Below, piece after piece: positions 3,775 through 21,763 of a DNA stretch of 25,722 nucleotides; within the stretch, counting starts at the first letter, position 1, and each line of letters starts with the position of its first letter. Both the position numbers and the translations under genes were made by a program. Under the pieces are notes generated by a model. That model saw only the letters and a list, made by a program, of their open reading frames with translations, was not told where the DNA came from and searched no databases. This DNA comes from a virus. Location of the stretch: IMG/VR virus record IMGVR_UViG_3300037258_001191, positions 1 through 25,722 of that record. The stretch is one strand, 5' to 3'.

Positions 3775-5034
3775 ATGAGCCAGAACATAACAGACATGCC
3801 GGGAATTGAAGCCGCGATGGAACGGTTTGATACGATGACAGGTTCAAACGACGCCGCCGATGCGGCGGAATCTGTTGGCGGGAAAACCGATGCCAGAGCG
3901 GACACGTCGGGCGATGGCGCCCTCCGTGCACGCGAGGCGCGTGCGCTCCCCCCGACTACGCGCGAACCCAGGGCTGACGCGCAGCCCTCTGTGGGAAGGC
4001 AGAGCGGTAGCTCTGCTCTACCTGATGTTACGGCTCAAAACTCCGTTACTTCTTCCACCGACACACCAGCGGCGGCAGCCTCCTCGCAGGCGGGCCACGC
4101 TTCGCAGACTGATAAACAACGAGACGAAAAGGGAAGGTTCACGGCAAAGCCAGGGGAGAACGACAGTGGCGGCGCCACTGGCCAATCTGCCCTGCCGGAA
4201 AACGGGACGCAAACCACGCAAGGCGGCAAGCCTGAGAACGGCGGCCCCGGCGCAAGCCGGTTCGCCAAAGCGCAGGAACGGCTGGAAAAGACATGGGAAG
4301 CCGTCAACAAGCGCAAAGGCGACCTGGACGCGCAGACGCAGGCCATCGAACAGCAGCGGCTGACCTTGGAGCGCGATCAGGCGCAGTTTGAGGCGATTCG
4401 CCGCCAGGCGGAACAGCCCCAGGCCACGCCCGATCAGGCGCTCCATGCGGCGCAGTTGCGCCGGCGTGATGCCGATGCCTTGCGGATGCAGGCCAAACGG
4501 GCCGAAGACGCAGGGCGTTTCGAAGAAGCTCAAAGGCTGAATAAACAGGCTGACAAAGCCGAGAGTTTGGCCGATGAACTGGGCGAATATGCCGGGCAAC
4601 TTCGAACGAACCCTCCCGTATCCATGCAGCAGCGCCAGCAACAGTTTGAGCAGGCGCGCAAGCAGTGGACCCTGGAAGCGTGCAATGCGTTTCCTGAACT
4701 GGGCAAAAACGGCAGCCGTTTGCAACAGGTCGTCGCCCGGCACTTGAACGGGGTGGCGAAACAGGACCCGCATTTGCTCGTGCATCCATCGTTGATTTAT
4801 CACGTCGCCAGGCTGGCGGACGCGCAGATCAAGGCCAATGACCTTGAGGCTGCCGCCGCTCGTGTGCCGGTGTTGGAGAAGGCAGCGGAGTCGTTACGCG
4901 CGAGGATTAAGGACCTCGAGGCCGAGACGACTCCGGCCGGGAACGGCGGTGCAGCGCGCCTGGGCGAACCTGCCCAGGACGACTACGCGTCGTTGCGCCA
5001 GTCGGCGGTTGAGCTTGGTCACGGGCGATGGTGA
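3775..5034 (+). CDS. Putative capsid scaffold / assembly protein
   Basis: A 419-residue, highly hydrophilic protein directly upstream of the major capsid gene, which is the usual place for a podovirus-type scaffold. The N-terminal 160 residues are disordered and contain RDEKGRF at about 116-122, a motif common in phage scaffold proteins. Residues about 160-275 and 345-385 are long Gln/Ala/Glu-rich helices expected to form coiled coils. Residues 296-345 look folded (WTLEACNAFPELGKNGSRL). Residues about 46-84 and 129-140 are translations of inserted palindromic repeats (3909-4022 and 4164-4180), carried in frame without a stop. The ATG at 3775 follows the structured repeat, with no clear Shine-Dalgarno. 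Role assignment rests on position and composition, not on a named domain. Confidence 0.75.
   Translation: MSQNITDMPGIEAAMERFDTMTGSNDAADAAESVGGKTDARADTSGDGALRAREARALPPTTREPRADAQPSVGRQSGSSALPDVTAQNSVTSSTDTPAAAASSQAGHASQTDKQRDEKGRFTAKPGENDSGGATGQSALPENGTQTTQGGKPENGGPGASRFAKAQERLEKTWEAVNKRKGDLDAQTQAIEQQRLTLERDQAQFEAIRRQAEQPQATPDQALHAAQLRRRDADALRMQAKRAEDAGRFEEAQRLNKQADKAESLADELGEYAGQLRTNPPVSMQQRQQQFEQARKQWTLEACNAFPELGKNGSRLQQVVARHLNGVAKQDPHLLVHPSLIYHVARLADAQIKANDLEAAAARVPVLEKAAESLRARIKDLEAETTPAGNGGAARLGEPAQDDYASLRQSAVELGHGRW
3909..4022. repeat. Three consecutive hairpin repeats inside scaffold gene
   Basis: Positions 3909-3953 are a copy of the GGGCGCCCTC...GCACGCG...GCGCGTGCGCTCCCC family. Positions 3970-3988 form an AGGGCTG/CAGCCCT hairpin. 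Positions 4000-4022 form a CAGAGC/GCTCTG hairpin followed by CTCTACC, a partial copy of which lies at 12077-12097. All are translated in frame into an Arg/Ala/Pro/Ser-rich linker. Confidence 0.8.
4164..4180. repeat. GTGGC-core palindrome inside scaffold gene
   Basis: CAGTGGCGGCGCCACTG, the inverse orientation of the copy at 2054-2070. It is read in frame as SGGATG within the disordered part of the scaffold. Confidence 0.75.
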
Positions 5035-5088
5035 CCCCGTCGAGACGACGGGGTTAACCGACAGGCGAGATGCCTGCCCTACGGTCTT
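5034..5088. repeat. Hairpin repeat between scaffold and capsid genes
   Basis: A perfect 9-bp stem (ACCCCGTCG, loop AGA, CGACGGGGT) spans 5034-5054, starting at the last base of the scaffold stop codon. It is followed by a smaller CAGGC/GCCTG hairpin at 5060-5074 and CCTAC. No T-run follows, so it is not a simple intrinsic terminator. It could tune the scaffold-to-capsid expression ratio. Confidence 0.6.
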
Positions 5089-5111
5089 CGCGCATTTAGA
5101 AAGGTAAAAAT

Positions 5112-6251
5112 ATGGCGTTTCAAACAACACAAACAGACGGATTCTCAAATAGAGTCCTGTCCTTTTACAACAAGCAGCTTCTTCAGGCGATTCAGCTTAA
5201 CCTGCGCCTGAGTCATTACGCACGGCAACAGGCTGTGCCAAAATCAACGGGATTCAACGGCATCAGGTTTTTCCGGCCCCGGCGGGCTTCACGCGCCGGC
5301 GTGGGGGCTCTGACTGAGGGAACGGTGCCGACAACGTTGAACGATGTCAGTGTGGGTTACATCGACATCAAACTCGCGCAGCGCGGCAGCCTGGCGAAGA
5401 TTTCCGACATCGTCACGGCAACAGACCTGTTGGATACGCTGGACGTGTATTCCAAGACATTGGGCGCGGATGCGGCGCTGGACCTGGAATCGGTGAACTG
5501 GCATGCGATTTGTTCCAAAGCGGGAACGGCGGATGCCGACGGCACGGCCAATCCGATCCCCAACGGGCAACTTACGCTGAACGGGTCGAACACGATGTTT
5601 GAGCGTTTTGGCGGCACCGTACAGACGGGCGTTTCCGCCACAGACTACAACACGTTCCGCGCTCAAACAGTCGCCAACAGCATTATTACACGCGCGGTCC
5701 ATCTGGGTTGCATGACACAACTCAAGATCAACGGCGTTCCAATGGTCGGCGGAAAGTATGTGTGCGTCATTCCATCGCCGGTGCTGATGGATATGCGCAA
5801 GGACACGACCTGGACGAACACCGCGCAATTCAATCCCGACCAGTTGCTCTGGAAATGGGCGCAGTTTGAATTGGACGGCGCCGTGTTTGTGGAGGCGATG
5901 CGGCCGGACTTGCTGTTCATCGAGGACGCTTCACAGGCGGCAAACGTGGGCTATGGCGTTCATGCGCCGGCGGCGGCCAATACGGCCAGCGCATCGGATG
6001 CGGGCGCGATCTATTCGACGCTCTACCTGGGTGAGGACGCCTTTGGCATTCCCAAAATGGTCGGGGACGCCGGGAGCGACCCGGCCACGCCGAGCCTCAA
6101 AATCGTGAAAAACCCGGACAGCGGCAATCCGCTTGGCCAGTTCATCTTTGTGGGCTGGAAATCGTTCTACATGAGCGCGCTCTTGTGGACGAGTGAGGCG
6201 ACGGACATTCCGCATGCGGTGCAATTGCGGACACGGACAACGTTCTTCTGA
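5112..6251 (+). CDS. Major capsid protein, N4-gp56 family
   Basis: Major capsid protein with the HK97-type fold expected for the N4-gp56 family, 379 residues, which fits the family size. Visible family features are: an N-terminal helix (FSNRVLSFYNKQLLQAIQLN); RFFRPRRASRAGVGALTEGTVPT, matching the usual frr....LtEG.~P pattern, at about 53-75; a strand set LAQRGSLAKISDIV at about 90-103; the central VGGKYVCVIPSPVLMDMRKD; and late motifs STLYLGEDAFGIPKM and FIFVGWKSFYMSALLW. AAAGG lies 8 bases before the ATG. The scaffold lies 77 bases upstream. This gene is the clearest evidence that the region is phage-derived. The frame is intact and no repeat interrupts it, unlike many of its neighbours, which suggests this protein tolerates no insertions. 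Confidence 0.92.
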   Translation: MAFQTTQTDGFSNRVLSFYNKQLLQAIQLNLRLSHYARQQAVPKSTGFNGIRFFRPRRASRAGVGALTEGTVPTTLNDVSVGYIDIKLAQRGSLAKISDIVTATDLLDTLDVYSKTLGADAALDLESVNWHAICSKAGTADADGTANPIPNGQLTLNGSNTMFERFGGTVQTGVSATDYNTFRAQTVANSIITRAVHLGCMTQLKINGVPMVGGKYVCVIPSPVLMDMRKDTTWTNTAQFNPDQLLWKWAQFELDGAVFVEAMRPDLLFIEDASQAANVGYGVHAPAAANTASASDAGAIYSTLYLGEDAFGIPKMVGDAGSDPATPSLKIVKNPDSGNPLGQFIFVGWKSFYMSALLWTSEATDIPHAVQLRTRTTFF

Positions 6252-6390
6252 CCGGCTTGCGCCGGGGCCACCGGTTTGGCTCCGGCGCAGCCATAACTCC
6301 GAATTTGAAATTGAGCATGAACTGCTCGTGCGGGGGCGCACTCGTTGCACGCGGGGCGCGCGCGCTCCCCTGACAAAGGAAAACAAAAAT
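6252..6390. repeat. Hairpin plus GGGCGC repeat after capsid gene
   Basis: TGCGCCGG at 6258-6265 pairs with CCGGCGCA at 6282-6289, with GCCA/TGGC extending the hairpin inside the loop. Positions 6331-6370 are a copy of the GGGCGC...GCACGCGGGGCGCG...CGCTCCCC family, also found at 3909, 6484, 13643 and 17540. The ribosome-binding site AAAGG of the next gene follows directly. Confidence 0.65.
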
Positions 6391-6831
6391 ATGAAAAATA
6401 AATCTAATGCGGGACCAGGATTGATTGTGGCGCTGGGTTCTCCTTCTGACGACGCCGGCAAGATGGGGGTTGGATCTGCGGGCGGGGGCGCCCTTGATGC
6501 ACCCGGGGCGGGTGCGCTCCCCGGGGATGTGAATGCCCTGTCTGATGCGGCGAATACGGACACTGTGCCGGTCTCGATGCTGGCGATGCCGGATGATCAG
6601 GAACAGATGCAGCCGCCGGACGTGGGTGACGTGGTGAATTACCAGGTCACGGGCAAGGTGGTGGCCATTGAGGGCGACTACGCCACGGTACAACGGCAAA
6701 GCATCAATGGACAGGAATTGCCGGGAGCGGAAGATGGAAGCCCGGAGACGGGAGATGGGGACAGTGGCGGGGACGATGCCGGCGGCCAGTCGCTCCGAAA
6801 TGATGCGGCAAGCATTGGGATGCTGAGCTGA
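6391..6831 (+). CDS. Small virion-module protein with beta-rich core
   Basis: A 146-residue protein following the major capsid gene. The ATG at 6391 has AAAGG 11 bases upstream. I recognise no named family. The core at about 75-111 (DVGDVVNYQVTGKVVAIEG followed by DYATVQRQSINGQ) looks like a small beta-barrel. Flanking regions are Gly/Ala/Asp-rich and probably disordered. Residues about 32-45 (GGALDAPGAGALPG) are the in-frame translation of a repeat at 6484-6522. Proteins in this position in related phages are often minor head or decoration proteins, but the sequence does not prove this. Confidence 0.65.
   Translation: MKNKSNAGPGLIVALGSPSDDAGKMGVGSAGGGALDAPGAGALPGDVNALSDAANTDTVPVSMLAMPDDQEQMQPPDVGDVVNYQVTGKVVAIEGDYATVQRQSINGQELPGAEDGSPETGDGDSGGDDAGGQSLRNDAASIGMLS
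6484..6522. repeat. GGGCGC...CGCTCCCC repeat copy inside CDS
   Basis: GGGGGCGCCC...GCACCCGGGGCGGGTGC...GCTCCCC. A copy of the same family lies only about 150 bases upstream at 6331-6370. Here it is read in frame in the small post-capsid gene. Confidence 0.75.
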
Positions 6832-6884
6832 ACAATTTCACCACAGAGGCACGGAGTACGCAGGTTTTTTCAACAGCTAAAAAT

Positions 6885-8948
6885 ATGAGTTTCAACTTTT
6901 CAGTTTATCAGGCCGGCCGCCGTTGGGGCGATCGGGCCCGCTGCGGCGCATTGGCAGTTTTCTGCGCGCTCCTTGTCTCTGTGGTGAATAGCCGCGCGCA
7001 GACCGGGCCTTATGTTGTGATGCCGGGTGTTCAGGTCGGGCCAGACGCCCAATACTCGAGCGCACAATTTGCTACAAGCTCGGGCGGACTTCTTGTCCCC
7101 TGGGCAAACAGCTATCTGACGAATTTCGGCCAGATCACAATCTACACCAATGCGGCAAATCAGAACCTGCCGCCAAATATTATCGGCACGTATTCGTATA
7201 GTAGTACCAACTCAGGTTTGGGAGTTGCCATCTTTGTCAATTCCACTGTGGCGACGACAAATGTTCTCGTTTATTCGCCGAATGGACAGAACTTTGGCTT
7301 CGCGGGATGGAACCTCGTGCCATCAAATCAGATCGCCGCTGGAGGCACGTCGTTTGACATCCAGCCTCCGAGCGGTGGGTCTTTGCAAAATCTCACGGGA
7401 AACTGGACAGACGACGATGGCAATTATATTGGCGGAATTTGCCTCGGGACGTACGGCATTACTGCCAGCGTCTCTCAATCGGTAGCGCTGTCGGCAGCGG
7501 CATTGATTTCTGGTTCAGTTCCGCCGGTCCCAGGATATGTGGCCTATTTCGACCCGGCAACGGCCGCGACGAACAACGGGGCCACACTGACCGCATGGAA
7601 TGACAGCTCGGGCAATGGTAACACGATTGCTTTTGGCGGTGGCGGAATTACATGGTCTGAAAATGGGATCGGCGGGCGCCCGGGTATCTTTTTTAATGCC
7701 TCAACTTCGGTTGGAACGAACGATGGTTTCTTTTCGCGTTATAGCCTCAATACCAGTATCACATTGTTCCTTTGCTTCAATGATTACGGAGCAGCAACGA
7801 TTCCTCAATGGGGCGGTTCTGGAGCGCCTTATATATTCTGCGCGGGCACGCCGGCGGATTTTAATGGATGGTTTATTTCCCCCGCCGTTGGAGGTCCTCC
7901 AGGAAACGTTGGGTATATGTCTGGCACAAACGGCTATCAGGCGTACTGGGGAATCACCTTGAGGCGCGATCCGCAAGTGCTTTGCGTGCGTTATGACGGG
8001 GTCAGTTTCAAAGTTTACAGGAATGGCATAAAGGAGAGCGACCCGAACATTCAAAACTCATTGGGCGGTGGCAATGCGCCGCAACCAAACGGTATCGGTG
8101 CGGCTGGTAACTTCATCCTTGGCCAACTCGGCAATATTGCGGAGAACGCATGGAACGGGATTTACGGAAGGATTATTGTTTATCCCACGGCGTTATCTGC
8201 CAGTCAGGTTAATCAGGTCAATTCATTCCTGATGAATTATTATGGGATTGGGCAGAATGAAATCCTGTTAGAGGGCGATTCAATCACGTTGGCCGATGAA
8301 GGAGGTAATTTTTCGAATCTTGAAGCGTACGTTTCCGAAGCGTTTCCTTGGTTCCAGGTCGCAAATGTTGCCCAGCTTGGGAGAACGACAATCGGCGACG
8401 TCACTAATGCCTACAATTGGGCGCCGTTCAATAGTGAGGGAAACGGAGTGCACATTGCCGCGTTTATGGAGCGGGTGAACGACGACAATGCCAGTGACAG
8501 CATCGCCATAACGGAGACCAACTACCTGAATTGGGCGTCGATCGCCAGGAGCAACGGCTGGCAGACGATTGCCTGCACGATACCTTCTTACCAGGAGGGC
8601 GACAATAACGGCACGCGTACAAACCTAAACACGTACCTTCGGACGAATTGGTTCGGCCTTGGGTTCAATGCCATCTGTGATTACGCGGCGGTTCCGACGA
8701 TTGGAACAAACGGGGCCTGCAGCAATAGTGTAGTATTTTTCTCTGATAAGACGCACCCGCTATCGAACGGCTATCAGTATTTCTCCAACTCTCTCGTCAA
8801 CACGATCCAGTCATTGATCCCGAACTCGGGTTACATTTGGGACCAGCCGTGTTCGCCATTTGTCACGCCGCAGTTATGGAACAGCAATGATACGGGGGTG
8901 TTATTTTGGGACTCGGGACTGCACTCAAACCTCGTCTCGGCCCAATGA
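6885..8948 (+). CDS. Secreted SGNH-hydrolase with LamG-like domain
   Basis: A 687-residue protein with an N-terminal Sec signal peptide (hydrophobic core about 21-35, likely cleavage after SRA near residue 38). Residues about 205-450 contain a LamG/concanavalin-like beta-sandwich pattern (YFDPATAATNNGATLTAWND, later GIYGRIIVYPTALSASQVNQ). Residues about 457-665 are an SGNH/GDSL hydrolase: block I is GDSIT with nucleophile S466, and block V is DKTHP with D621 and H624. Family knowledge: such enzymes deacetylate or cleave esters on polysaccharides, so in a virion module it may be a tail-associated depolymerase. The signal peptide is unusual for a virion protein and suggests either a host-derived cargo gene or display at the cell envelope. 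The start is the ATG at 6885; no strong ribosome-binding site precedes it. A generic CACAGAGGCACGGAG repeat lies upstream. Confidence 0.8.
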   Translation: MSFNFSVYQAGRRWGDRARCGALAVFCALLVSVVNSRAQTGPYVVMPGVQVGPDAQYSSAQFATSSGGLLVPWANSYLTNFGQITIYTNAANQNLPPNIIGTYSYSSTNSGLGVAIFVNSTVATTNVLVYSPNGQNFGFAGWNLVPSNQIAAGGTSFDIQPPSGGSLQNLTGNWTDDDGNYIGGICLGTYGITASVSQSVALSAAALISGSVPPVPGYVAYFDPATAATNNGATLTAWNDSSGNGNTIAFGGGGITWSENGIGGRPGIFFNASTSVGTNDGFFSRYSLNTSITLFLCFNDYGAATIPQWGGSGAPYIFCAGTPADFNGWFISPAVGGPPGNVGYMSGTNGYQAYWGITLRRDPQVLCVRYDGVSFKVYRNGIKESDPNIQNSLGGGNAPQPNGIGAAGNFILGQLGNIAENAWNGIYGRIIVYPTALSASQVNQVNSFLMNYYGIGQNEILLEGDSITLADEGGNFSNLEAYVSEAFPWFQVANVAQLGRTTIGDVTNAYNWAPFNSEGNGVHIAAFMERVNDDNASDSIAITETNYLNWASIARSNGWQTIACTIPSYQEGDNNGTRTNLNTYLRTNWFGLGFNAICDYAAVPTIGTNGACSNSVVFFSDKTHPLSNGYQYFSNSLVNTIQSLIPNSGYIWDQPCSPFVTPQLWNSNDTGVLFWDSGLHSNLVSAQ

Positions 8949-8957
8949 CTCTTCATG

Positions 8958-9131
8958 CTACCACGCGCTCAAATCAATTCGGCAGGCATCGCAGACAAGG
9001 CAATGAGACTTTTTAACGGTTGCCGGGTTCTTTCCGCACACTTCGCAAAAGCTGTCCGGGTGCGGACCGACCCGCGGGAAAAACCAACCGAGAAGTTTAG
9101 AAAGTATGTGCCTCATGGCGCTTAGATTCAT
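8958..9131 (-). CDS. Small zinc-ribbon protein, antisense
   Basis: A 57-residue minus-strand ORF lying convergent to the SGNH gene. The C-terminal half reads FCEVCGKNPATVKKSHCLVC followed by DAC: a CxxC, a 14-residue spacer, and a second CxxC with a further cysteine three residues on. This is a clear zinc-ribbon arrangement and unlikely as a chance translation. The N-terminus has a hydrophobic helix (HILSKLLGWFF). The frame stays open upstream to 9314 but would then overlap the next plus-strand gene, so the ATG at 9131 or 9116 is preferred. Only 15 bases separate it from the plus-strand start at 9147, leaving little room for promoters. Function unknown. Confidence 0.45.
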   Translation of the reverse strand: MNLSAMRHILSKLLGWFFPRVGPHPDSFCEVCGKNPATVKKSHCLVCDACRIDLSAW

Positions 9132-9146
9132 GGCGACCCAATTCTC

Positions 9147-9479
9147 ATGATGAATACCAAAAACATCAACTGGGGCAAGATGTATTCGATCACCGGGACT
9201 CTGGGTGTCCTTGGCGCGTTTGCGATTTGGGCGTTCACCAAGGCGAGCACGTATGCGGTGTTGCCGGGGCAGGTTGCGGATCACGAGCGGCGGATTACAG
9301 CTTTGGAATCTCAAGCGGCGACGAATGCGGTGCGGCTGGATGATCGGTTGGATCGGATTGACAGGGATTTGAAGGTGATTTTCCGGAGGTTGGACGCAGG
9401 GGGAAGCGCCGTGAATGAGGTGGATGCCAGGAGCGCCGGGAGTGCCATGACCACAACGAACATTATTAGTGAGAGGTAA
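9147..9479 (+). CDS. Small membrane protein with coiled coil (holin/spanin-like?)
   Basis: 110 residues. One membrane helix at about 14-31 (SITGTLGVLGAFAIWAF) is followed by a heptad-like helix at about 43-85 (ADHERRITALESQAATNAV, then LDDRLDRIDRDLKVIFRRLD). This N-anchored, coiled-coil layout is common for small phage envelope proteins near lysis genes, but no family is identifiable. It starts with ATGATG and sits only 5 bases from the next gene, so the two are probably translationally linked. Its neighbours are other small envelope-directed proteins, which together suggest an envelope or lysis subcluster (9147-11414). Confidence 0.65.
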   Translation: MMNTKNINWGKMYSITGTLGVLGAFAIWAFTKASTYAVLPGQVADHERRITALESQAATNAVRLDDRLDRIDRDLKVIFRRLDAGGSAVNEVDARSAGSAMTTTNIISER

Positions 9480-9484
9480 ACATC

Positions 9485-9844
9485 ATGACGAATCCGAATC
9501 CATTACTTGAACTGGGACAACAAGCCGCGAGCTACGCGGGTTACAACCTGTCTGGCGGCGAAATTACTTTAATTGTCAGCGCGACTGGAACGGTCGTTGC
9601 GGGACTGGTCCACTATGCGCACCTGGCGGTTTATGCCTGCGGCCGAGCCGGCGGTTGGGAGGGGGTGAAGCGGTTTGTGAGGACGGGTTCAACAGCGGTG
9701 GTGGCTGGTCCGAGTTCGGTCAATCCTCCCTCACCCCTGCCCTCTCCCCAAGGAGAGGGTGTCGCGCAGGTCAGTCCTGCGGCGTTGGCAGGTGGGACGA
9801 TGATCTCGCCGGATCCACATATGAAAGGGCCGCTGGGATTGTGA
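9485..9844 (+). CDS. Small membrane protein carrying repeat-derived segment
   Basis: 119 residues. There is one strongly hydrophobic segment at about 25-51 (ITLIVSATGTVVAGLVHYAH). AGAGG lies just upstream of the ATG. The size and hydrophobicity would fit a holin-like or membrane-associated phage protein, but no family is recognised. Residues about 80-104 (PPSPLPSPQGEGVAQVSPAA) come from an interspersed repeat at 9726-9771, which has also been read in the same frame in the gene at 11745. The native C-terminus may therefore end near residue 78, with the tail after it acquired. Confidence 0.6.
   Translation: MTNPNPLLELGQQAASYAGYNLSGGEITLIVSATGTVVAGLVHYAHLAVYACGRAGGWEGVKRFVRTGSTAVVAGPSSVNPPSPLPSPQGEGVAQVSPAALAGGTMISPDPHMKGPLGL
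9726..9771. repeat. CCCTCACCCC...CTCTCCC...GGAGAGGG repeat
   Basis: CTCCCTCACCCCTGCCCTCT, then CCCC-AAGG-AGAGGG forming a hairpin, then GTCGCGCAGGTC. Near-identical copies lie at 11801-11850 (same translation frame, including GEGVAQV) and 11170-11199 (different frame). Confidence 0.85.
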
Positions 9845-9876
9845 GGCGTAAGATTTCGGTACAAACAAAAAACACA

Positions 9877-10272
9877 ATGAAAACAAAACCATTAGCACTT
9901 ATCGGCATCGCGGTGGCAGCGCCACTTGCATTTGCATTAACCGGGTGTGCGACGCAATCGGTCACGACTGCGGCATACAAAACTGAAGCGACGACGGACG
10001 CCGCTGTCACCACGGCCATGAGCGCCTGGGGCGCCTATGTATCCATGTATCATCCGCCGACCAGCCAGGAGTTGGAAGTGGAAAAGGCGTTCGACGCGTA
10101 TCAACAGGCGGAGTTGGCGGCGATTGATGCCACGACAGCTTACGCGAACGCCGCCGGCACAAATTCCGTGGCCGAATCGCAACAGGAAACAGTGGCACTT
10201 ACGTCGGCGACGCAGTCTCTGACGGATCTGTTGAATTTGGCGGCGCAGTTTGAGCAATCGACGAATAAATAG
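9877..10272 (+). CDS. Predicted lipoprotein
   Basis: 131 residues with a lipoprotein signal peptide: MKTK, a hydrophobic stretch at 6-21, and lipobox LTGC with acylated Cys24. The mature part is Ala/Thr/Gln-rich and helical (ELEVEKAFDAYQQAELAAID). The likely location is the inner face of the outer membrane or the periplasm. In a phage module it could act at the envelope in lysis (outer spanin-like), in superinfection exclusion, or be a host-acquired cargo gene; the sequence does not decide. Part of the signal peptide is encoded by a GTGGCAGCGCCACTTGC palindrome (9913-9929), and the same 17 bases start again inside the stop codon (10272), so the gene is bracketed by a direct repeat. Confidence 0.75.
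   Translation: MKTKPLALIGIAVAAPLAFALTGCATQSVTTAAYKTEATTDAAVTTAMSAWGAYVSMYHPPTSQELEVEKAFDAYQQAELAAIDATTAYANAAGTNSVAESQQETVALTSATQSLTDLLNLAAQFEQSTNK
9913..9929. repeat. GTGGCAGCGCCACTTGC repeat within signal peptide
   Basis: A 17-base unit with an inverted GTGGC/GCCAC core, identical to 10272-10288. It is translated as VAAPLA in the lipoprotein signal peptide. Confidence 0.8.
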
Positions 10273-10288: not shown

Positions 10289-10366
10289 CTGGATAAAAAC
10301 AAAAACCGAAAACCCGTTCGAGGACGAGAACGAGAACGGCGACGAGAACGAAAGGAGTCAATAATC

Positions 10367-10616: not shown

Positions 10617-11414
10617 ATGCCAAAAATCCTCATCTGGACCGGGGCGCATGATCCGTTGGATGGCGCGATAAAGTTTCTCACGCACGGTCGTGGGACGCAT
10701 GCGGCGTTCCTGCGGGCCGACGGCGCAACGGTGCATGAGGCGTTTTGGCCGAAGGTACGGGACCGGGCGTTGACGGATGCTGATCTGCAAAATGCGCGCG
10801 CTTTCGCGATCGAAGGCGTGACGCATCAGCAATGCCTGGCGTTCGAGCATCTCTTCGACGCGAATCTGCGCCGCGGGATCCGGTACTCGATCGTGGACCT
10901 GTTTCGCTATGCGCTGAACATGCCGTCGAGGGATGAGCATCACACATTTTGTTCCCGGTACGTGCTGCACTGTTGCAATGCAATCCTGCACGAATATCAA
11001 ATGCCGCTGATCCGCATCCCGGACCATGACTGGGCGAGTCCGAGGGATTTGCTGATTTCGCCGCGGCTTTCGGAGACGGATGTGCTCAGGGCTTATTTGG
11101 CGAGCGCGGCCGCTCTCCCTACAAATGAACAACACGAGAGCAGGCGCTCGCCACGCTCGCTAGCTAGAGCCCCGGCCCTCTCCCGCTGGGAGAGGGTGAC
11201 AAGCAGGGCCGGTCAACCGCGAACTAACTTTATGAATAACGATCCGATCCACATTAAGCCGTCGCATAAGGGTTTGCTGACGGAGAAGGCGCGCGCGGCG
11301 GGGAAAAGCCCAATCGAGTTCGCGCATTATGTCCTGGCGCATAAGGATATTTTTCATCCGGCCACGATTAAGGAGGCGCAGTTTGCGGTGAATGCCTCGA
11401 AATGGAAGAAGTAG
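10617..11414 (+). CDS. YiiX/DUF830-type cysteine hydrolase fused to small phage protein
   Basis: 265 residues in two modules. Residues 1-151 match the YiiX/DUF830 group of NlpC/P60-like papain-fold hydrolases: His28 in the GTHAAF strand, then HEAFWP, a GIRYSIVDLFRYALN helix, catalytic Cys112 in HTFCSRYV, and the closing DWASPRDLLISP. Such enzymes cut amide or thioester bonds, so a role in cell-wall entry or lysis is plausible. Residues about 164-203 translate inserted repeats (11114-11199). Residues 206-265 form a separate 60-residue module beginning with its own ATG at 11232 (HIKPSHKGLL...AQFAVNASKWKK), a pattern typical of very small stand-alone phage proteins. The repeat probably removed the stop of the first gene and joined the two. 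Independent initiation at 11232 remains possible. Chosen start: the ATG at 10617. Confidence 0.7.
   Translation: MPKILIWTGAHDPLDGAIKFLTHGRGTHAAFLRADGATVHEAFWPKVRDRALTDADLQNARAFAIEGVTHQQCLAFEHLFDANLRRGIRYSIVDLFRYALNMPSRDEHHTFCSRYVLHCCNAILHEYQMPLIRIPDHDWASPRDLLISPRLSETDVLRAYLASAAALPTNEQHESRRSPRSLARAPALSRWERVTSRAGQPRTNFMNNDPIHIKPSHKGLLTEKARAAGKSPIEFAHYVLAHKDIFHPATIKEAQFAVNASKWKK
11114..11199. repeat. Empty-site copy of the MITE target repeat
   Basis: Positions 11114-11163 match 2663-2712 at 48 of 50 bases. They are followed directly by CTAG again (11164-11167), then AGCCCC and a CCCTCTCCC/GGGAGAGGG hairpin corresponding to the sequence right of the MITE at 2988. The junction therefore reads CTAGCTAG, with no element between the halves. 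Confidence 0.85.
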
Positions 11415-13642: not shown

Positions 13643-13685
13643 GGGCGAGGGCGCCCTCCGGGCACGCGGGGCGCGTGCGCTCCCC
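13643..13685. repeat. GGGCGC...CGCTCCCC repeat between genes
   Basis: The most complete copy of the family also found at 3909, 6331, 6484 and 17540. The self-complementary core is GCACGCGGGGCGCGTGC. It fills the gap between the fibre-like and adaptor genes and ends about 10 bases before the adaptor's AAGGA ribosome-binding site. Confidence 0.8.
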
Positions 13686-13707
13686 AAAAAAGAAGGAAAA
13701 ACACACT

Positions 13708-14958: not shown

Positions 14959-15310
14959 ATTTACGATCTATGGAACAGATGTTTGCAAGTCGCGGAGCGA
15001 CATTGGAAATTAGCCAGACACGCGGTGTCTGGCGGGCTGTGAGAAATGATGTTTGTCCTGAAGGGACAACGGAATCCACCCGTCCCTTCAGGACGGAATA
15101 TCTTTGCATTAAATCCAGACACTTTGCGTCTGGCTACATTCCGCTTGTGCCTTCAGCACGAGCAAAACATCTCGGTCCCTCCAACGCCGTGCCCTCCGCG
15201 TTTGTGCGATGAAGACCCCTTTCGATATTAACCTGCGTCCGCAATCCGCAACACGCGCGGCCAAACCATTTCGACTTTTAACGATTTAACGTTTCAACAA
15301 CGCAATTTTT
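14959..15310. other. 352-bp intergenic region, structured repeat and AT leader
   Basis: No gene is supported. The left two-thirds is the 116-bp structured repeat (14988-15103) and its tail to about 15160. The remainder (15200-15310) is unstructured and ends in an A/T-rich leader before the nozzle gene ATG. Short overlapping ORFs here have no protein-like composition. Confidence 0.6.
14988..15103. repeat. 116-bp structured repeat, copy 1
   Basis: It begins AGTCGCGGAGCGACATTGG. It contains inverted pairs CCAGACAC/GTGTCTGG and GTCCTGAAGGGAC/GTCCCTTCAGGAC and ends GGACGGAATATCT. A second copy of exactly the same length is at 17679-17794. Compensated stems and a constant length point to a mobile or RNA-structured unit. 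The sequence after it (15115-15133) repeats the CCAGACAC...GTCTGG pairing. Confidence 0.85.
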
Positions 15311-16951
15311 ATGGCCATAGACAGCTCAATGCTTCAACTGTACGGCAAGCCCATCTTCACGATCGATGGGACGGATGACGATTTGCAGTTTGAGCAGGTG
15401 ATTGATTTTTCCGGGGGCGAGGATGATTACCGGCGTTCGACGCTTATCGCCCAAAACCAATGCCAAAAGCTCATCAACGTGATCGTGCGGGACAATTATG
15501 AAGCGTGGACAAGGCCTGGAGCGGACCGGTTTGCACCGGGGCCGCTCGCCGCGGCGGCGGTCATGACGCTGGTTTATTTTGATACGCCACAGAACAAGTT
15601 TTTGCTGTCGATTTGCAATGGGATACTGAGGGCGTGCGCGGGGCAGAATCAGAATTGGCAATCGAGTTTCAATGGCGGCGCGACTTATACGGCCGCCAAT
15701 ACGAACACACAGGTCGAGATAGAACAGGGCGTTGATACGGTCCTGATTTCGGATGGCGTGAACGCCATGGCCATCCTGGATGGCGACTTGAATCTGACGA
15801 CTTGCACGACAACGGCGGGCGATCCTCCGGTGGGGGCGACGATTCTTTGCTGGCATACGGGCCGGATGTTTGCCGCCGGATTTTCGGGCATTGGCGGCGG
15901 CGCGGTGCCGCGAGATACGATCGCCGTGAGCAACCTGCTGGCGTTCGGAAACGGACAATGGAATTTGACGACGCGCAGTTTCCGCGTGGGCGACGGGGAT
16001 GGAGACCCGATTGTAGCCCTCTATTCCATGCAGGACTCGAACCTGGCCGTTTTCAAGGCGAACAGCATTTGGCTGGTGAATACGCCGGCCTCCGCGGATG
16101 CGAGCGGGTTCAGCGCGACGACGGATGTGGATAGCGTGGCGTTTGGAGTGGGTTGCGTGGGCAAACGGGCGTTGTGCGGCGTGGCCAATGACATTTTTTT
16201 CATGGCGCAGGATGGTGTCCGGAGTTTGCAGCGGATGCAGGCGGCGGCCGGGCAATGGCAGCTTTCGGCGCCCATCTCGCAACCGGTCCAGAAGTATATC
16301 GAGCAGATCAATCCGGCGGCGCAGCCGGGCATCGTGGCGACTTCGTACAAGGAATTTGTCTTCTTTGCGATTCCCCTGGGCACGAGCATGGTCAATAACG
16401 CCGTGCTGGTCTATAACACGCGGTTAAGTTCATGGCTGGGTTGCTGGCAAAACTGGACGCCTTCAGCGTGGACCGTGAGCCGGTTTAACCCGGTGCAGCA
16501 GCTTCTATTCGGGGACAGCCTCGGCGATGTGAATTATTGGAAGGATGCGGCTTCGACGACTGACCCGGCGACTTACACTGACGCCGGCGTGAATATCGCC
16601 ACGGCGATCTGGACGCGGTCGTTTCAGTTTCTCCAGGCGGTGAATGACAAGTTTCCGTACAACTGCACGCTGCGATTTACGGCGGGGAACTCGGTGGTGT
16701 CGGTGGCCGCGATCATGGATTTGGCGCAGCAACTGGCCTGGCAGTCTCAGATGCAACCGGCAGGGGATATTTTGGGCCAGCACATCCTGGGGCCGTTTCA
16801 ACTGGCGACCGTGAAACCGGCAAAGATAGAAAAGTCCCTGCGTTCGTGTCCGGCCTTCAACGAGATGTATCTGACGATTTCGACGTCGAGCGGGTATATG
16901 CAACTGCGAAATATCACGGTCGCGGCGTTTTTGAAGGCGTTGGGCAATTGA
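15311..16951 (+). CDS. Podovirus-type tail nozzle / stabilisation protein
   Basis: A 546-residue protein with the layout of podovirus tail nozzle proteins (gp10/gp12-like, beta-propeller). The N-terminal part has FSGGEDDYRRSTLIAQNQCQ and NVIVRDNYEAWTRPGADRF, matching the usual start in which the protein counts its contacts and names the genome-delivery tube. Repeated blade-like segments follow. A diagnostic stretch at about 277-305 reads FGVGCVGKRALCGVANDIFF followed by MAQDGVRSL. The product would form the distal nozzle below the adaptor and contact fibres. The ATG at 15311 follows an A/T-rich leader with no clear Shine-Dalgarno. The frame is uninterrupted and free of repeat inserts, like the major capsid gene. 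Confidence 0.75.
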   Translation: MAIDSSMLQLYGKPIFTIDGTDDDLQFEQVIDFSGGEDDYRRSTLIAQNQCQKLINVIVRDNYEAWTRPGADRFAPGPLAAAAVMTLVYFDTPQNKFLLSICNGILRACAGQNQNWQSSFNGGATYTAANTNTQVEIEQGVDTVLISDGVNAMAILDGDLNLTTCTTTAGDPPVGATILCWHTGRMFAAGFSGIGGGAVPRDTIAVSNLLAFGNGQWNLTTRSFRVGDGDGDPIVALYSMQDSNLAVFKANSIWLVNTPASADASGFSATTDVDSVAFGVGCVGKRALCGVANDIFFMAQDGVRSLQRMQAAAGQWQLSAPISQPVQKYIEQINPAAQPGIVATSYKEFVFFAIPLGTSMVNNAVLVYNTRLSSWLGCWQNWTPSAWTVSRFNPVQQLLFGDSLGDVNYWKDAASTTDPATYTDAGVNIATAIWTRSFQFLQAVNDKFPYNCTLRFTAGNSVVSVAAIMDLAQQLAWQSQMQPAGDILGQHILGPFQLATVKPAKIEKSLRSCPAFNEMYLTISTSSGYMQLRNITVAAFLKALGN

Positions 16952-17046
16952 ATCTCACGCAAAGGACGCAAGGTGAACGCGATGAAAAATAGATTTCAAA
17001 ATCTCCCGGCGCAGCCTCCAATTGAATGCCCTGAAAGGGCGAAGTC

Positions 17047-17664
17047 ATGCCAAGCATAAATCTGATCTACGGCCGCTCCATTTCGCATTCCGAATTTAGC
17101 CATCCGCATTCTGCGATGGGCCATCCATCTTCGCAGGCTTTCACCCTCGCCAAATTCTTTCTGAATCATCGAGGGCGTTGTTTCGAGGGCTGGTCCACGG
17201 ACAAAATATTCTATTACGTCCTTGTCAATCTGCTTAACCGCAATGTCTTCGTGGCGTTGGCGGACAAATTTGGGCGGATTGGCACTTCCGTCCTGCCCGG
17301 GATTGGCCTGGCGGTCATTGCGTGGCTCGACGATGCGGCACGAATTCAGGATTTGGATGCCTGCGGGTTGCCGTTGTTCGATTGGAATGGGTTTCCATCC
17401 GATGGCGATTCCATTGTGATTGCCGACGTCGCCGGCGATCGGCGATTAATGCCTGAAATTTTAAAACAGGCGATTGTGCGATGGGGAGAACACGCGCCTC
17501 GCGTGTTGTTTCGCGCGCCTTCGCGCGAAACGGACGCGGTGGCGCGCCCTGATGCTCGCGGGGCGCGAGCGCTCCCCACTCAGAAAAGATTGTTTACGTA
17601 TCGTCGCAGGAAATTGGTCGAACTGAGTTGGAAAACAGTGATTAGATTTTCAAATCAAGCATGA
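17047..17664 (+). CDS. Virion-module protein with repeat insert (GNAT-like?)
   Basis: 205 residues. The N-terminal part (about 40-145) has a helix with WSTDKIFYYVLVNLLNRNVF, a hydrophobic strand VLPGIGLAVIAWLDD, and SIVIADVAGDRRLMPEILKQ. This order is reminiscent of GNAT-fold proteins encoded after tail genes in some podoviruses, but the match is weak and the role unknown. Residues about 147-180 are a translation of three hairpin repeats (17489-17577) placed between QAIVRWG and KRLFTYRRRKLVEL, which look like parts of one original sequence. GAAAGGGCGAAG precedes the ATG at 17047. Insertion without a frameshift suggests selection kept the ORF open. Confidence 0.55.
   Translation: MPSINLIYGRSISHSEFSHPHSAMGHPSSQAFTLAKFFLNHRGRCFEGWSTDKIFYYVLVNLLNRNVFVALADKFGRIGTSVLPGIGLAVIAWLDDAARIQDLDACGLPLFDWNGFPSDGDSIVIADVAGDRRLMPEILKQAIVRWGEHAPRVLFRAPSRETDAVARPDARGARALPTQKRLFTYRRRKLVELSWKTVIRFSNQA
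17489..17577. repeat. Three hairpins inserted in a virion-module CDS
   Basis: AACACGCG-CCT-CGCGTGTT (17489-17507) and TTTCGCGCG-CCTT-CGCGCGAAA (17509-17530) are perfect hairpins. They are followed by a copy of the GGCGCGCCCTGAT...GGGGCGCGAGCGCTCCCC family (17540-17577). Confidence 0.85.
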
Positions 17665-17678
17665 AACAAATGCCTTTC

Positions 17679-17794
17679 AGTCGCGGAGCGACATTGGAAA
17701 TTAGCCAGACACGGAGTGTCTGGTGGACTCTTAAAGAGGTCCCTGTCCTGAAGGGACGACGGAGTTTCCGCCGTCCTTTCAGGACGGAATATCT
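17679..17794. repeat. 116-bp structured repeat, copy 2
   Basis: Same length and same conserved ends as 14988-15103: AGTCGCGGAGCGACATTGG at the start and GGACGGAATATCT at the end. Stems CCAGACAC/GTGTCTGG and GTCCTGAAGGGAC with a GTCCTTTCAGGAC partner are conserved, while the segment between the two stems has diverged. It fills the gap before the minus-strand membrane gene. Confidence 0.85.
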
Positions 17795-17852
17795 CCGAGT
17801 GAAATTCTTAAATTGGAAGACCGCCCTCTACTTCAGCCGAATAAATGGTGGG

Positions 17853-18206
17853 TTACTTTGCCGGTAAAATGAACCCCAGGAAAAGAATTTCTACCGCAAG
17901 AATGCAAACCGGAATAATTAATCCAATTAACCAAACCGACCACCGTCTTGTCCATTTGGGAATCATCAACACCCCATTCGATATCAGAATGACGAGAATG
18001 GAACAACAAACGAAATACCAAAACGGCGTAAACCAGGAACCCTCCTTAAAAACCAGGGCGAACAGCAACAAATTAAGCGAAATAAAAGCCGTGAGCGGCA
18101 ACAAAACCCCATGAACCATCTTTGTCCCAGACCGATACCCCGTAGATATAGCGGCGCCGATCGAAACCAAGAGTCCGATGCAAGCGATGACGATGAGTCC
18201 AATCAT
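17853..18206 (-). CDS. Four-helix membrane protein, reverse strand
   Basis: A 117-residue minus-strand protein with four predicted membrane helices: LIVIACIGLLVSIGAAI, VLLPLTAFISLNLLLFALVF, FVCCSILVILISNGVLMI and WLIGLIIPVCILAVEILFLG. Short basic loops such as PKWTRRW separate them. No family is recognised. The opposite orientation within a co-directional virion module fits an independently transcribed cargo gene (a moron) or a host gene brought in by rearrangement. A role in membrane protection, such as superinfection exclusion, is only a guess. The region is A/T-richer than its neighbours. No good ribosome-binding site was seen. Confidence 0.65.
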   Translation of the reverse strand: MIGLIVIACIGLLVSIGAAISTGYRSGTKMVHGVLLPLTAFISLNLLLFALVFKEGSWFTPFWYFVCCSILVILISNGVLMIPKWTRRWSVWLIGLIIPVCILAVEILFLGFILPAK

Positions 18207-18275
18207 TTGAGGACGACGATTGATAACTTGACCAATGTACCCACGTCAATTGTAAATCGAAAATCGTAAATCCCC

Positions 18276-19328
18276 ATGGCTTCTTCCCCAAACATACCTG
18301 ATCCAAACGCCGCCGCGGTAGCGGGCGCTCTCGCGCAGGCCGGGACGTTTCCGTTCCAGCAATACATTGATTATCTTGCGCAGACGGGCGGCGCCGCGAA
18401 TGTGGGCGGTACAAACTATAATTTTACCGGCCTGGGCAATGCGCAGCAGAACGCCGCGCTTTCGCAGGCGATGTTGCCGGCGGAATTGAACATCCAGCAA
18501 CAGTACGGACCGCAATATGTCCAACAGGCGCTGGCGAATTTGCGGCAGGCAAACCCGAATGCAGTCGCGGCACGTCAACAGGAGTTTTCCAATATCGCCT
18601 CGAATGCCCAGGCGACGCCAAACCGTCCGATGGCCACCGGCCTGCAGAATCAGATTCTCGCGCTCGCCGGCCAGGGCAGCAATCTCACCACCGGGCCGAA
18701 CAGCGAAACCGAAGCCGTCCAGCAGGGTGTGCGCGGACAGCAGGTCGCAAACGGGATTTATTTGGGCAATGCGCCGGCGTCGCAAGAGGCCGCGGCGGTG
18801 GTCAATGTCGGGGACCAGCAACAGCAGCAGCGACAACAACAGGCGCTGGACTTTTTACAGAGCGGGGTTTCACCGGAAGACGTGACCTACCGGCGCGTGC
18901 AGCAGTCGCTCTCAAACCTGGGCAATGCGATCAATGGCCAAACGCCCGAGGCGCAATTTCAGTCGCTCTCAGGCGCGGCGAGCGGAGCGGCGCCCTTCAA
19001 TACGGCAGGGGTACAGTCGCCGTCTGTGAACACGAACTCGGCGTTGCAGGGGCTTCAGAATGCGTCGGAGATTTACGGCGGAAATGTGAATTGGGCGGAG
19101 AACCAGGCGAATCCGTGGACGGTGGGGCTTTCGTCGCTCGCGGGCAGTGCGAACATTTTAAACAGTAGCGGGGCGTTGGGGAATTTATCGAATGTACTGA
19201 CGCCTGCGCCCACGGTTAATTACGGACAATACGCGAGCCCGGGTAATTGGAGCACACCGTCCCCGGCCGCAACGACGGCATCGCCTGCGAGTTGGAGTCA
19301 GACGATTCCAGTGGGAGAAGGATCGTGA
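18276..19328 (+). CDS. Q/A/N-rich internal virion-like protein, paralogue A
   Basis: A 350-residue low-complexity protein rich in Gln, Ala, Asn and Ser, with no cysteine. It is related to the gene at 20486 in three blocks. One is at about 74-100 (IQQQYGPQYVQQALANLRQA). A second is at about 197-235 (GVSPEDVTYRRVQQSLSNLG then AINGQTPEAQFQSLSGAASG). The third is near 275-287 (ENQANPWTVGL). The composition and position after the nozzle gene fit internal or ejection proteins of podoviruses, which leave the capsid with the DNA. The order of blocks is the same in both paralogues, so they arose by duplication. The start ATG at 18276 follows an AATCG-rich leader without a clear Shine-Dalgarno. Confidence 0.6.
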   Translation: MASSPNIPDPNAAAVAGALAQAGTFPFQQYIDYLAQTGGAANVGGTNYNFTGLGNAQQNAALSQAMLPAELNIQQQYGPQYVQQALANLRQANPNAVAARQQEFSNIASNAQATPNRPMATGLQNQILALAGQGSNLTTGPNSETEAVQQGVRGQQVANGIYLGNAPASQEAAAVVNVGDQQQQQRQQQALDFLQSGVSPEDVTYRRVQQSLSNLGNAINGQTPEAQFQSLSGAASGAAPFNTAGVQSPSVNTNSALQGLQNASEIYGGNVNWAENQANPWTVGLSSLAGSANILNSSGALGNLSNVLTPAPTVNYGQYASPGNWSTPSPAATTASPASWSQTIPVGEGS

Positions 19329-19452
19329 ACGCCCATGGCGAAGATGGTAGGGACGCTGCGCCGCGGCGTCCAGCGCCGCGTGCAGCGGCGCAACGAGCGT
19401 TGTCGGACGATCTTCCGCGACGATTCCGCGCTCCACGCGCGGTGACGGCGCA

Positions 19453-19565
19453 GGGGACGCGAAACTCCACGATCCCCCATCCTCGCCGCAAATAGGCGTG
19501 GCCCCGGTGCAAACCGGCCAACAATTCACAATGAAACCGCCCTCCGCGAACTGCCGCTGAAATAA
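19453..19565 (+). pseudogene. Truncated duplicate of the cupin gene 5' region
   Basis: Positions 19453-19516 match 19803-19866 at 57 of 64 bases with no gap, exactly 350 bases apart. The duplicated block ends where the downstream gene begins (GTGCAAACCG here, ATGCAAACCG there). The upstream copy then shortens and reads GAACTGCCGCTGA, against GAATTGCCGCTGA further into the gene, before stopping. It looks like a relic of tandem duplication followed by internal deletion. Confidence 0.6.
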
Positions 19566-19613
19566 AAAATGGAAAATATGGAACATCGAATTGATGCGAT
19601 TCAAGGGGTAGTT

Positions 19614-19770
19614 AAAGCCCGTAGGGCTGGCGTATTTGTGGAAAACGGATCTAAAACAAATACAAAGCATTCCATGTTGGCGCAGCCACTAACTGAGAAC
19701 CCTGAAAGGGTTCACGATATTAGCCAGGGGTCAAGCCCGACTCCGGGAGGGCGACCACCCCTGGTAACTG
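19614..19770. repeat. CCCTGAAAGGG and ATTAGCCAGGGGT repeat cluster
   Basis: Stems visible: AGCCC/GGGCT (19616-19628), GAACCCTGAAAGGGTTC (19697-19713), and CCAGGGGT at 19724-19731 pairing with ACCCCTGG at 19757-19764. The CCCTGAAAGGGCGAAG text before the gene at 17047 is a relative. Confidence 0.7.
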
Positions 19771-19856
19771 TCACAAATATAATTCCCTCTCCCGCGGGCG
19801 CGGGGGACGCGAAATTCCACAATCCTCAATCCTCGCCGAAAACAGGCGTGGCCCCG

Positions 19857-20489
19857 ATGCAAACCGCTGGTTCCGCTTCAACGCTCATCGACTCCCTCCA
19901 GGCGGCCGTCGAGCGTATGCCGCAGGTGGAATTGCCGCTGACGCATCGGTTCACGCCGGGGATGTATGTTCGCACGATTTTCATGCCGAAGGGCGCGCTG
20001 GTGATCAGCAAGATTCATCGCACGCAACATCCGTTTGTCGTAACCAAAGGACGATGCCTGGTTTGGGCTCCCCGCCAAAGTGCGCCGGGTGAGGACACCC
20101 GGCCTGCAACCGAGGTCCAGGAAATTGCGGCCGGCCACATCGGGATCACCCTGCCGGGGACGCGTCGCATCATCTATATATGCGAAGACACGGAATGGAC
20201 GACGTTTCATGCCACGAACAAGACGACGCCGGAAGAAGTCGAGGCGGACATCATCGAGCCGCACGACTTTGACCGGGAAGAAGCGTTGGCCCAAATGGGC
20301 CGGATGAATGGATTTCTGGATGGGTGGATAAATGAGCAAGGCTCGCTCTCACCTCCGCCTTCGAAGGTGAAATCCTCTCCGGAGGAAGAAGAGGATGCAG
20401 GTGAGAGCGGGCATCGATCATCGGCGAAGGGGCCGATTCATTTTCCATTAATCCAACAATCCACTAACCCAAAAATCCAATTCTCATGA
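19857..20489 (+). CDS. Cupin-like phage protein
   Basis: 210 residues from the ATG at 19857. Residues about 10-128 form a small cupin-like barrel: MPQVELPLTHRFTPGMYVRT, then IFMPKGALVISKIHRTQHPF with candidate metal ligands H54 and H58, ITLPGTRRIIYICEDTEW, and TTFHAT with H118. Small proteins of this pattern are common in phages, with no settled function. The C-terminal 60 residues (from about 150) are acidic and low-complexity and overlap the structured repeat at 20303-20485, so the end of the gene may have been rebuilt by repeat insertion. The stop overlaps the next ATG by 4 bases (ATGA), suggesting translational coupling. The frame is open to 19569, but that extension is repeat-derived. 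It lies between the two paralogous internal proteins. Confidence 0.65.
   Translation: MQTAGSASTLIDSLQAAVERMPQVELPLTHRFTPGMYVRTIFMPKGALVISKIHRTQHPFVVTKGRCLVWAPRQSAPGEDTRPATEVQEIAAGHIGITLPGTRRIIYICEDTEWTTFHATNKTTPEEVEADIIEPHDFDREEALAQMGRMNGFLDGWINEQGSLSPPPSKVKSSPEEEEDAGESGHRSSAKGPIHFPLIQQSTNPKIQFS
20303..20485. repeat. TGGATGAATGG-type repeat with nested hairpin
   Basis: The left arm (GGATGAATGG, GGATAAATGAG) and right arm (CCATTAATCCAACAATCC) resemble the copy at 3659-3774. Between them CGCTCTCACCT (20344-20354) pairs perfectly with AGGTGAGAGCG (20399-20409), with CCTTCGAAGG and CCTCTCCGGAGG inside. As at 3774, the unit ends just before a start codon. Confidence 0.7.
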
Positions 20490-21763
20490 GTTTTGCAACT
20501 ACAGCCACAGTGATAGGAGCCGTTGGCGCGACCGCCGGCCTGGCAGAAACCGGTTACGCCCTTGCGGGTGGCAACCAACCTCAATACCCAAATGAAGCCG
20601 CGTCGTCCGCGCAGATGGCGAATACGACGGCGGCGTTGTTGCCGATTCAGCGCGGGATGGCTGCCGCGGCGCAGTCGGGCGGCAATTATACGTTCAATTT
20701 GCCGCAGGGCGCATCGGCATCCGCGCTGGGAATCCAGCAGTCGGGCGGCGGCTGGTATGGACCGAATGGGCAGCTCGTTTCCGGCGATCAAAATTACCTG
20801 CTACCGCAGGCGAACCCGGGCTATTCGCGTTACGGCGGCCAGCCGCAATATAATTACGTTTCGCCGCAATCGGCGGGGCTTGCCTGGAAGCCGGGGGCAA
20901 CGACGATTGACGGCGTTCCGATCAAGCAGAACGGCGACGGTTCCTACACGATTGATTTCAACGGTTACGGCGCCGCGCAGGCCGCGGCCACGGAAGCGCA
21001 GCAAAGTGCGGCGAGCCAATTGTCGCTCGAACAGCAGTATGACCCGAAGTTCATCGCCCAGGCGTTGCAACAGGAACAACAGGCCGATCCCGAAAGTTTC
21101 GCCGCGCGGAATGTGATGAATAATCTGGTGGAGCAGCAAAGCGCCGCGCCGCTGAATGAGCCGGTCTCGACGATGCTGAATTCGCAGATCCAGGATGCGC
21201 TCAACGCGGGACAAAATAATTCGCTCACGACGACGGATACGGAACGGTTGAATGCGGCGGTGTCGAATGCGCTGGGGTCGAGAGGAGGAGGCAGTGGTGG
21301 CAGCGGTGGCAGTGCCACTGACGTTAATTGGGGTCAGCCGTTGACGAGTGAGTTTCCGGGGGAACAGCGGCAGGCGCAGGCGGCGCAATCGGCGATGGGA
21401 TTTTTTGGGAGCGGCTCCGATCCCGAGGACATTGAGTATCGGCGCACGCAACAAAACCTGGCGAACCTGGCGGCGGAAGCCAATGGACAAACGCCGAGCA
21501 GCCAATTTTCGTCGCTCTCCGGCGCATCATCCGGGCCGGCGCCGATGTCGAGCGGGGCGACTTTGCCACTCTTGACCGACAACGGCGCGGCGGCACAACA
21601 GATCGGGCTGCAAAACTGGGAAACACAAATGCAGAACGCCAATAACCAGGTCAACCCGTGGATGACTGGACTTACGGGGATGCTGAACCTGGGCAGCGCG
21701 CTGACGCCAAGGGCGACGACCGCAATGCCCACTTTGTTAAGCCCACAAAATCCGGCGTCGTGA
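20486..21763 (+). CDS. Q/A/N-rich internal virion-like protein, paralogue B
   Basis: A 425-residue paralogue of the protein at 18276. Shared blocks, in the same order: EQQYDPKFIAQALQQEQQAD at about 181-200; GSDPEDIEYRRTQQNLANLA then ANGQTPSSQFSSLSGASSG at about 310-350; and NNQVNPWMTGL near 385-396. The N-terminal 170 residues differ: a hydrophobic Gly/Ala-rich helix (VIGAVGATAGLAETGYALAG) that could associate with membrane, then beta-like Gly/Tyr/Asn text. A GTGGC palindrome at 21293-21321 is translated as GGSGGSGGSAT. It is expected inside the head or ejected with DNA. The start ATG overlaps the previous stop (ATGA). Confidence 0.6.
   Translation: MSFATTATVIGAVGATAGLAETGYALAGGNQPQYPNEAASSAQMANTTAALLPIQRGMAAAAQSGGNYTFNLPQGASASALGIQQSGGGWYGPNGQLVSGDQNYLLPQANPGYSRYGGQPQYNYVSPQSAGLAWKPGATTIDGVPIKQNGDGSYTIDFNGYGAAQAAATEAQQSAASQLSLEQQYDPKFIAQALQQEQQADPESFAARNVMNNLVEQQSAAPLNEPVSTMLNSQIQDALNAGQNNSLTTTDTERLNAAVSNALGSRGGGSGGSGGSATDVNWGQPLTSEFPGEQRQAQAAQSAMGFFGSGSDPEDIEYRRTQQNLANLAAEANGQTPSSQFSSLSGASSGPAPMSSGATLPLLTDNGAAAQQIGLQNWETQMQNANNQVNPWMTGLTGMLNLGSALTPRATTAMPTLLSPQNPAS
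21293..21321. repeat. GTGGC-core repeat coding for Gly-Ser linker
   Basis: AGTGGTGGCAGCGGTGGCAG followed by TGCCACTGA: the outer arms CAGTGGT/GCCACTG pair, and the interior is a short GGTGGCAGC tandem. It is read in frame in paralogue B as a Gly-Gly-Ser linker. Confidence 0.65.

Follow-up and report, generated by a model that had tools for sequence, protein, structure and literature searches.

Host palindromic repeats in frame within phage virion genes and their likely link to a transposase lodged inside essential bacterial genes

Repetitive extragenic palindromic elements (REPs) mobilized by REP-associated tyrosine transposases (RAYTs) are imperfect palindromes that occur dispersed in genomes and bear a short G-rich head; they show compensatory stem changes, form inverted doublets (REPINs) and flank, in inverted orientation, the gene of an IS200/IS605-like HUH/Tyr transposase (Nunvar 2010, PMC2817692; Di Nocera 2013, PMC3733652). 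The residence of such repeats in frame within proteins is also known, both from Opitutus terrae, for which PMC3733652 reports the most intragenic GTAG repeats, and from the Rickettsia palindromic elements (RPEs; Ogata 2000, 2002; reviewed in PMC10969869). Here, we analyze a 25.7-kb virus record (IMG/VR record IMGVR_UViG_3300037258_001191, 25,722 nt; this whole stretch is referred to as the window), in which the phage module occupies positions 3180-22958, and two families of short repeats, F1 and F2, found within and between its virion genes. We are largely confident that the hairpin repeats of the window are REPs of bacterial hosts, that F1 is likely copied by a RAYT and that the copies surviving in genes are those that keep the frame in tolerant linkers. 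The analysis also points to a likely mechanism absent from the original prediction: F1 is a RAYT-type REP, and the transposase associated with it resides in frame within genes that are essential.

F1 shares all of the RAYT-REP traits listed above. Read in reverse, it begins with GGGGAGC followed by a hairpin, an arrangement resembling that of RAYT-type REPs (PMC2817692, PMC3733652). However, the head is GGAG (within GGGGAGC) rather than the canonical GT(A/G)G, and F1 is therefore regarded as operating in the manner of a RAYT-REP, without being classed among the canonical GTAG REPs. F1 differs further in having copies in phage virion genes and in its cognate transposase, which is built in frame into essential proteins as an internal domain and does not form a separate gene. 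The intragenic REPs of O. terrae are likewise verrucomicrobial, single or in doublets, and translated in housekeeping proteins; they have another head, and the passages of PMC3733652 considered mention neither phage genes nor an in-frame RAYT. The RPEs, to which the original prediction had likened the repeats, are palindromes in frame in unrelated proteins, and the likeness is right in kind, as F1 also represents dispersed host palindromes inserted in frame in proteins whose homologues lack them. Nevertheless, RPEs belong to a different phylum, have CGTC ends and apparently no dedicated transposase (PMC3733652), whereas F1 has GGGGAGC ends and a RAYT; RPE-1 is also longer. Finally, TIRtrons/TIRYT have inverted ends around a tyrosine transposase and a GGGGWSAS motif close to the GGGGAGC start of F1 (PMC3733652), but the match is imperfect and F1 has as its core a true hairpin REP of high copy number.

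The consensus of F1 is GCACGCGNGGCGCGTGCGCTCCCC. The metagenome-assembled genome (MAG) G001, which carries the related phage L004, contains 35 copies at ≤3 mismatches, and G088 contains 67, while the reversed control pattern gave 0 in both. In the search of relatives, F1 was present in 24 of 59 genomes, with ≤40 copies per genome. Of the 2.9 million viral contigs of the collection, only 4 contain an exact F1 pattern, whereas F1 is common in host genomes. These copy counts and the viral scan rule out a phage-specific repeat; the repeats are host-wide. Stems are perfect in 143 of 332 copies (arm shuffling gives a mean of 43 and a maximum of 60) and display 141 Watson-Crick double changes, a covariation count to which no strict probability is attached, since the copies are mutually related and kinship was not removed. 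The F1 hairpin is thus kept by compensatory changes. In host genes, in-frame F1 copies were found in alaS, valS, purL, metH and an altronate dehydratase gene (valS and purL in the MAG hosting L004; valS, purL and metH in other genomes). The alaS gene of the L004 host contains an inverted F1 pair at one of two insertion sites, site A, with no transposase between the copies, as well as a second F1 doublet.

To map the repeats of the window, phage loci were compared with 0.75 Mb of sequence from a related host MAG, with the phage contig excluded. The families can be seen within the window itself, and host-genome matching provides independent confirmation. In total, 12 repeat stretches were identified in the window, including 11 in the phage module, 7 of which lie wholly within open reading frames (ORFs). 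Scans for related phages yielded L002/L009 (94% capsid identity), L003/L007 (88%), L004 (87%) and L005 (76%), along with a near-identical contig, L006. L004 resides in the Verrucomicrobiia MAG JOPF050. L005 was binned in a MAG labelled Patescibacteria, probably a misbinning of a Verrucomicrobiota phage. The features of the window are as follows.

3775..5034, plus strand: scaffold-like gene with a variable N-terminal linker; homologues in L009, L007, L004 and L005
3912..3956, plus strand: F1 REP in frame in the scaffold gene; 22 host matches
5112..6251, plus strand: major capsid gene, repeat-free in the window and relatives; gap-free against L009, L004, L007 and L005
6335..6370, plus strand: intergenic F1 REP upstream of the 6391 gene; 8 host matches
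6496..6524, plus strand: F1 REP variant in frame in the post-capsid gene 6391-6831; absent in L009, L004 and L005
9715..9759, plus strand: F2 repeat (CCCTCTCCC..GGAGAGGG) at the C-terminus of the 9485-9844 ORF; 6 host matches
11170..11199, plus strand: F2 repeat at a two-gene junction in the fused 10593-11414 ORF; genes separate in L009 and L004
11802..11838, plus strand: F2 repeat (PGPLPLGEGVAQV) in frame near the N-terminus of the fibre-like gene 11745-13634; 9 host matches
13645..13689, plus strand: intergenic F1 REP; 20 host matches
14970..15114, plus strand: longer intergenic repeat with 3 of 6 frames closed; second copy at 17661-17805
15311..16951, plus strand: nozzle/head-closure gene, repeat-free in the window; the L007 homologue has an insert
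17006..17040, plus strand: intergenic host repeat (CCGGCGCAGCC...CCTGAAAGGGC); 4 host matches
17483..17577, plus strand: complete inverted F1 doublet (REPIN) in frame in gene 17047-17664; host matches; absent in L007
19346..19393, plus strand: intergenic host repeat; 5 host matches

The scaffold copy is composed of the second hairpin, GCACGCG-AGG-CGCGTGC and GCTCCCC and encodes GALRAREARALP; the variant at 6496..6524 (GCACCCG-GGG-CGGGTGC) shows a compensatory stem change, and the doublet reads GGGGAGA-ACACGCG-CCT-CGCGTGT ... GCTCGCG-GGG-CGCGAGC-GCTCCCC. The original prediction listed at least eight virion ORFs with embedded repeats, and alignment with homologues confirmed insertion in four of them. 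The scaffold insert is common to the window and L009 and missing from L007, L004 and L005. The insert of the post-capsid gene is found in the window only, and in L009 the same linker holds an unrelated repeat. The N-terminal F2 copy of the fibre gene is missing from L004. The 17047-17664 gene contains the 95-nt doublet in the window and none in the L007 homologue, which has its own F1 insert at a different site, missing from the window. Thus, homologues lack these segments and do not carry them as conserved sequence. For the remaining ORFs, intragenic insertion was not confirmed: the 10593 "hydrolase" ORF is a fusion with repeats at the junction, the small downstream gene standing alone in L009 and L004; the C-terminal copy of the 9485 ORF is without a comparator; and host-genome matching detected no host repeat in either the signal peptide of the lipoprotein or paralogue B; the linker of the latter is GS-rich in the window and carries GRAEVPFRQG in L009. 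The capsid and nozzle genes had been described as free of repeats, which holds for the capsid in five phages and for the nozzle in the window, but not for the nozzle of L007, in which a QLGQSGSSALP insert is present.

An important question is which enzyme moves F1. Y1_Tnp genes were detected in 6 of 8 F1-bearing genomes. In G058 (L081), inverted F1 copies flank the transposase, and the entire unit lies in frame inside alanyl-tRNA synthetase (AlaRS); at site A of alaS in G209 (L129) and G088 (L130), F1 is likewise found on both sides of the RAYT in inverted orientation. The F1-linked RAYT clade was searched for in 293 genomes of the order and found in 38, and a further search covered the phylum. 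All matches at ≥ ~44% identity are in stop-free open frames of ≥555 aa, and weaker matches are often stand-alone genes. According to Pfam, Y1_Tnp lies between the AlaRS halves, in threonyl-tRNA synthetase (ThrRS), in PriA (one of two at threshold) and adjoining DnaE domains. The 33 RAYT copies read are distributed among AlaRS (25: 17 at site B, 6 at site A and 2 of unresolved site), ThrRS (5), PriA (2) and DnaE (1). The phylum-wide search added AlaRS cases in other lineages as well as RecG and an Eco57I-type methylase; the RAYTs in recG, dnaE and the methylase are more distant from the alaS/thrS/priA clade. All complete copies have intact HUH and Tyr motifs, which are missing only from one locus truncated by a contig end. 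For the RAYTs, pairwise dN/dS is ~0.04-0.1, a rough estimate with dS often >1.

Another question is whether such genes are genuine. Each of 20 genomes has one alaS locus only, in which PF01411 pieces lie on both sides of the guest wherever it is present; in G047 and G054, alaS is uninterrupted (~940 aa). An assembly artefact or pseudogene is ruled out by open frames in all strong matches in dozens of genomes, by the single-locus alaS and by a case on a multi-megabase contig (G133). The open frames and single-copy alaS suggest that the RAYT-bearing proteins would be made full length. L131, a copy at site A, groups within the site-B clade and has the same REP ends, therefore indicating a move between in-frame sites. 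Because the RAYT clade is embedded in frame in the interior of proteins that are essential and single-copy, the flanking REPs are read as linkers. Like inteins, with which only the lifestyle is compared, these RAYTs are in-frame residents of essential conserved genes; unlike inteins, they show no splicing domain, lie in variable linkers and are apparently retained in the protein. Pfam found only Y1_Tnp between the host-protein halves and no self-splicing HINT domain, and the guest therefore does not classify as an intein. Taken as a lifestyle, an intein-like existence of this Verrucomicrobiota RAYT lineage seems probable to us: the transposase would be translated within essential proteins as one of their internal domains (in AlaRS at two sites, in ThrRS and in PriA; for related RAYTs, in RecG, in DnaE and in a restriction-modification methylase), with REPs as translated linkers, would be held under strong purifying selection and could move from one in-frame site to the next, while its REPs spread into host and virion proteins. 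At L078 (G038:C74), a RAYT lies in frame before the DnaE HHH/OB domains and is followed by VGQASSLSG...TGGTPVP repeat peptides; the TGGTPVPL peptide is also found in genes of phage L004.

These data raise a key question: do the elements seek coding DNA, or does selection retain those that happen to keep the frame? The original prediction had left both alternatives standing. Among 18 host F1 copies with both flanks coding on one strand, 16 keep the same frame (15 open) and 2 are shifted, while one third would be expected; several of these copies share a gene, which makes the independent events fewer, and the gene calls come from a hexamer model made for this analysis. Selection on frame, the first of the two alternatives, is thus supported. 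The second, insertion tuned to coding DNA or an element evolved specifically for in-frame insertion, draws on the cognate RAYT clade being always in frame within genes and on the F1 consensus being open in 6 of 6 frames. However, open frames follow from the high G+C content (~82%), which alone predicts 5.3 of 6; in the window module, 7 of 11 repeats lie in ORFs at a coding density of 88.8%, corresponding to intragenic depletion (p = 0.027); and ~85% of host F1 copies are not demonstrably within genes. Therefore, coding-targeted insertion is not supported, and we regard it as unlikely.

The repeats could also be functional protein modules kept for a peptide role in the virion, such as AREARALP. 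Plus-strand F1 copies in ORFs do prefer the AREARALP phase (10/2/0 across phases, hosts and phages combined), a preference that could reflect selection against the HARRVRS phase. Nevertheless, compensatory changes preserve the stems although the encoded peptide alters (GALDAPGAGALP, DARGARALP), the same sites in relatives lack the peptides, some linkers carry unrelated repeats, and these repeats also occur between genes; the compensatory changes and the replacement by unrelated repeats, in particular, disfavor a peptide function, which we consider very unlikely. Even less credible is that the ORFs are spurious or degraded prophage genes and the repeats neutral debris. It is true that the virus records represent trimmed fragments, that two genes are fused in the hydrolase ORF and that the scaffold gene of L003/L007 (1-1251) contains a single in-frame stop, but the scaffold, capsid, 6391 and nozzle genes are conserved in related phages, with frames open save for that one stop.

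The preferred explanation, a host REP origin with frame-keeping survivors, can be outlined as follows. The architecture of F1 (GGGGAGC head, 7-bp hairpin and second hairpin) resembles RAYT-element ends, and F1 would most likely be copied by a RAYT-type HUH tyrosine transposase. Copies would enter host and phage genes irrespective of frame, and purifying selection would then retain only frame-keeping copies in tolerant linkers, with the high G+C, stop-free sequence easing tolerance of the elements as peptides. The phage may pick up REPs while replicating or residing as a prophage in such hosts. Several points weigh against this explanation. G054 has ~40 F1-like copies, often near contig ends, yet no detectable Y1_Tnp domain, and G001, the L004 host, has F1 but not the F1-linked RAYT clade; loss of the RAYT or MAG incompleteness may explain both. 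In addition, the mobilization of F1 by the alaS-resident RAYT is what we infer from sequence, the head departs from the canonical form as noted above, and F2 is linked to no transposase.

A further host repeat, GGTCGCTCCCTCACGGTCGCGGCTCTG, was observed in phage L004 (11404, 13194, 15540 and 16820), in which it encodes GRSLTVAAL in hydrophobic or signal-peptide segments of several genes; it has ~23 matches in 0.75 Mb of the host. At G001:C251 (L083), a RAYT surrounded by GGTCGCTCCCTCACGGTCGCGGCTCTG-type repeats precedes, in frame, a pilin-like N-methylation motif. A general role of this repeat in supplying signal peptides is a lead only, with several L004 genes and just one weak N-terminal case among the sampled host copies. 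Elsewhere in the window, positions 1-1794 encode a hybrid histidine kinase on the minus strand, in the place of which L004 has a 996-aa minus-strand gene between the portal and 3180 genes; the window contains neither terminase nor portal, both of which may lie beyond its ends. A miniature inverted-repeat transposable element-like sequence is located at 2709-2987 (211 nt enclosed by 34-nt inverted ends, 94% complementary), and a 51-nt direct repeat (2663-2713 and 11114-11164) is 96% identical between copies 8.4 kb apart. Arrays of 8-nt units (TGGATNNA type) at 3658-3768 and 20302-20487 flank gene ends in opposite orientations.

In the literature searched, which took in few subscription papers, neither RAYTs residing in essential genes nor virion genes of phages containing REPs were found to be described. 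When this transposase family was surveyed in 2018, proteins of unexpected length were set aside as presumed gene fusions or errors of annotation (PMC6006769), and in-gene RAYTs could therefore have been filtered out. Host REP elements re-shape phage virion proteins. Lasting in-frame residence in single-copy essential enzymes is an apparently undescribed niche for domesticated transposases, one that would shield them from stop codons and deletion alike and thereby allow persistence of their REPs. With it, the old question of how palindromic repeats enter proteins becomes open to biochemical testing.

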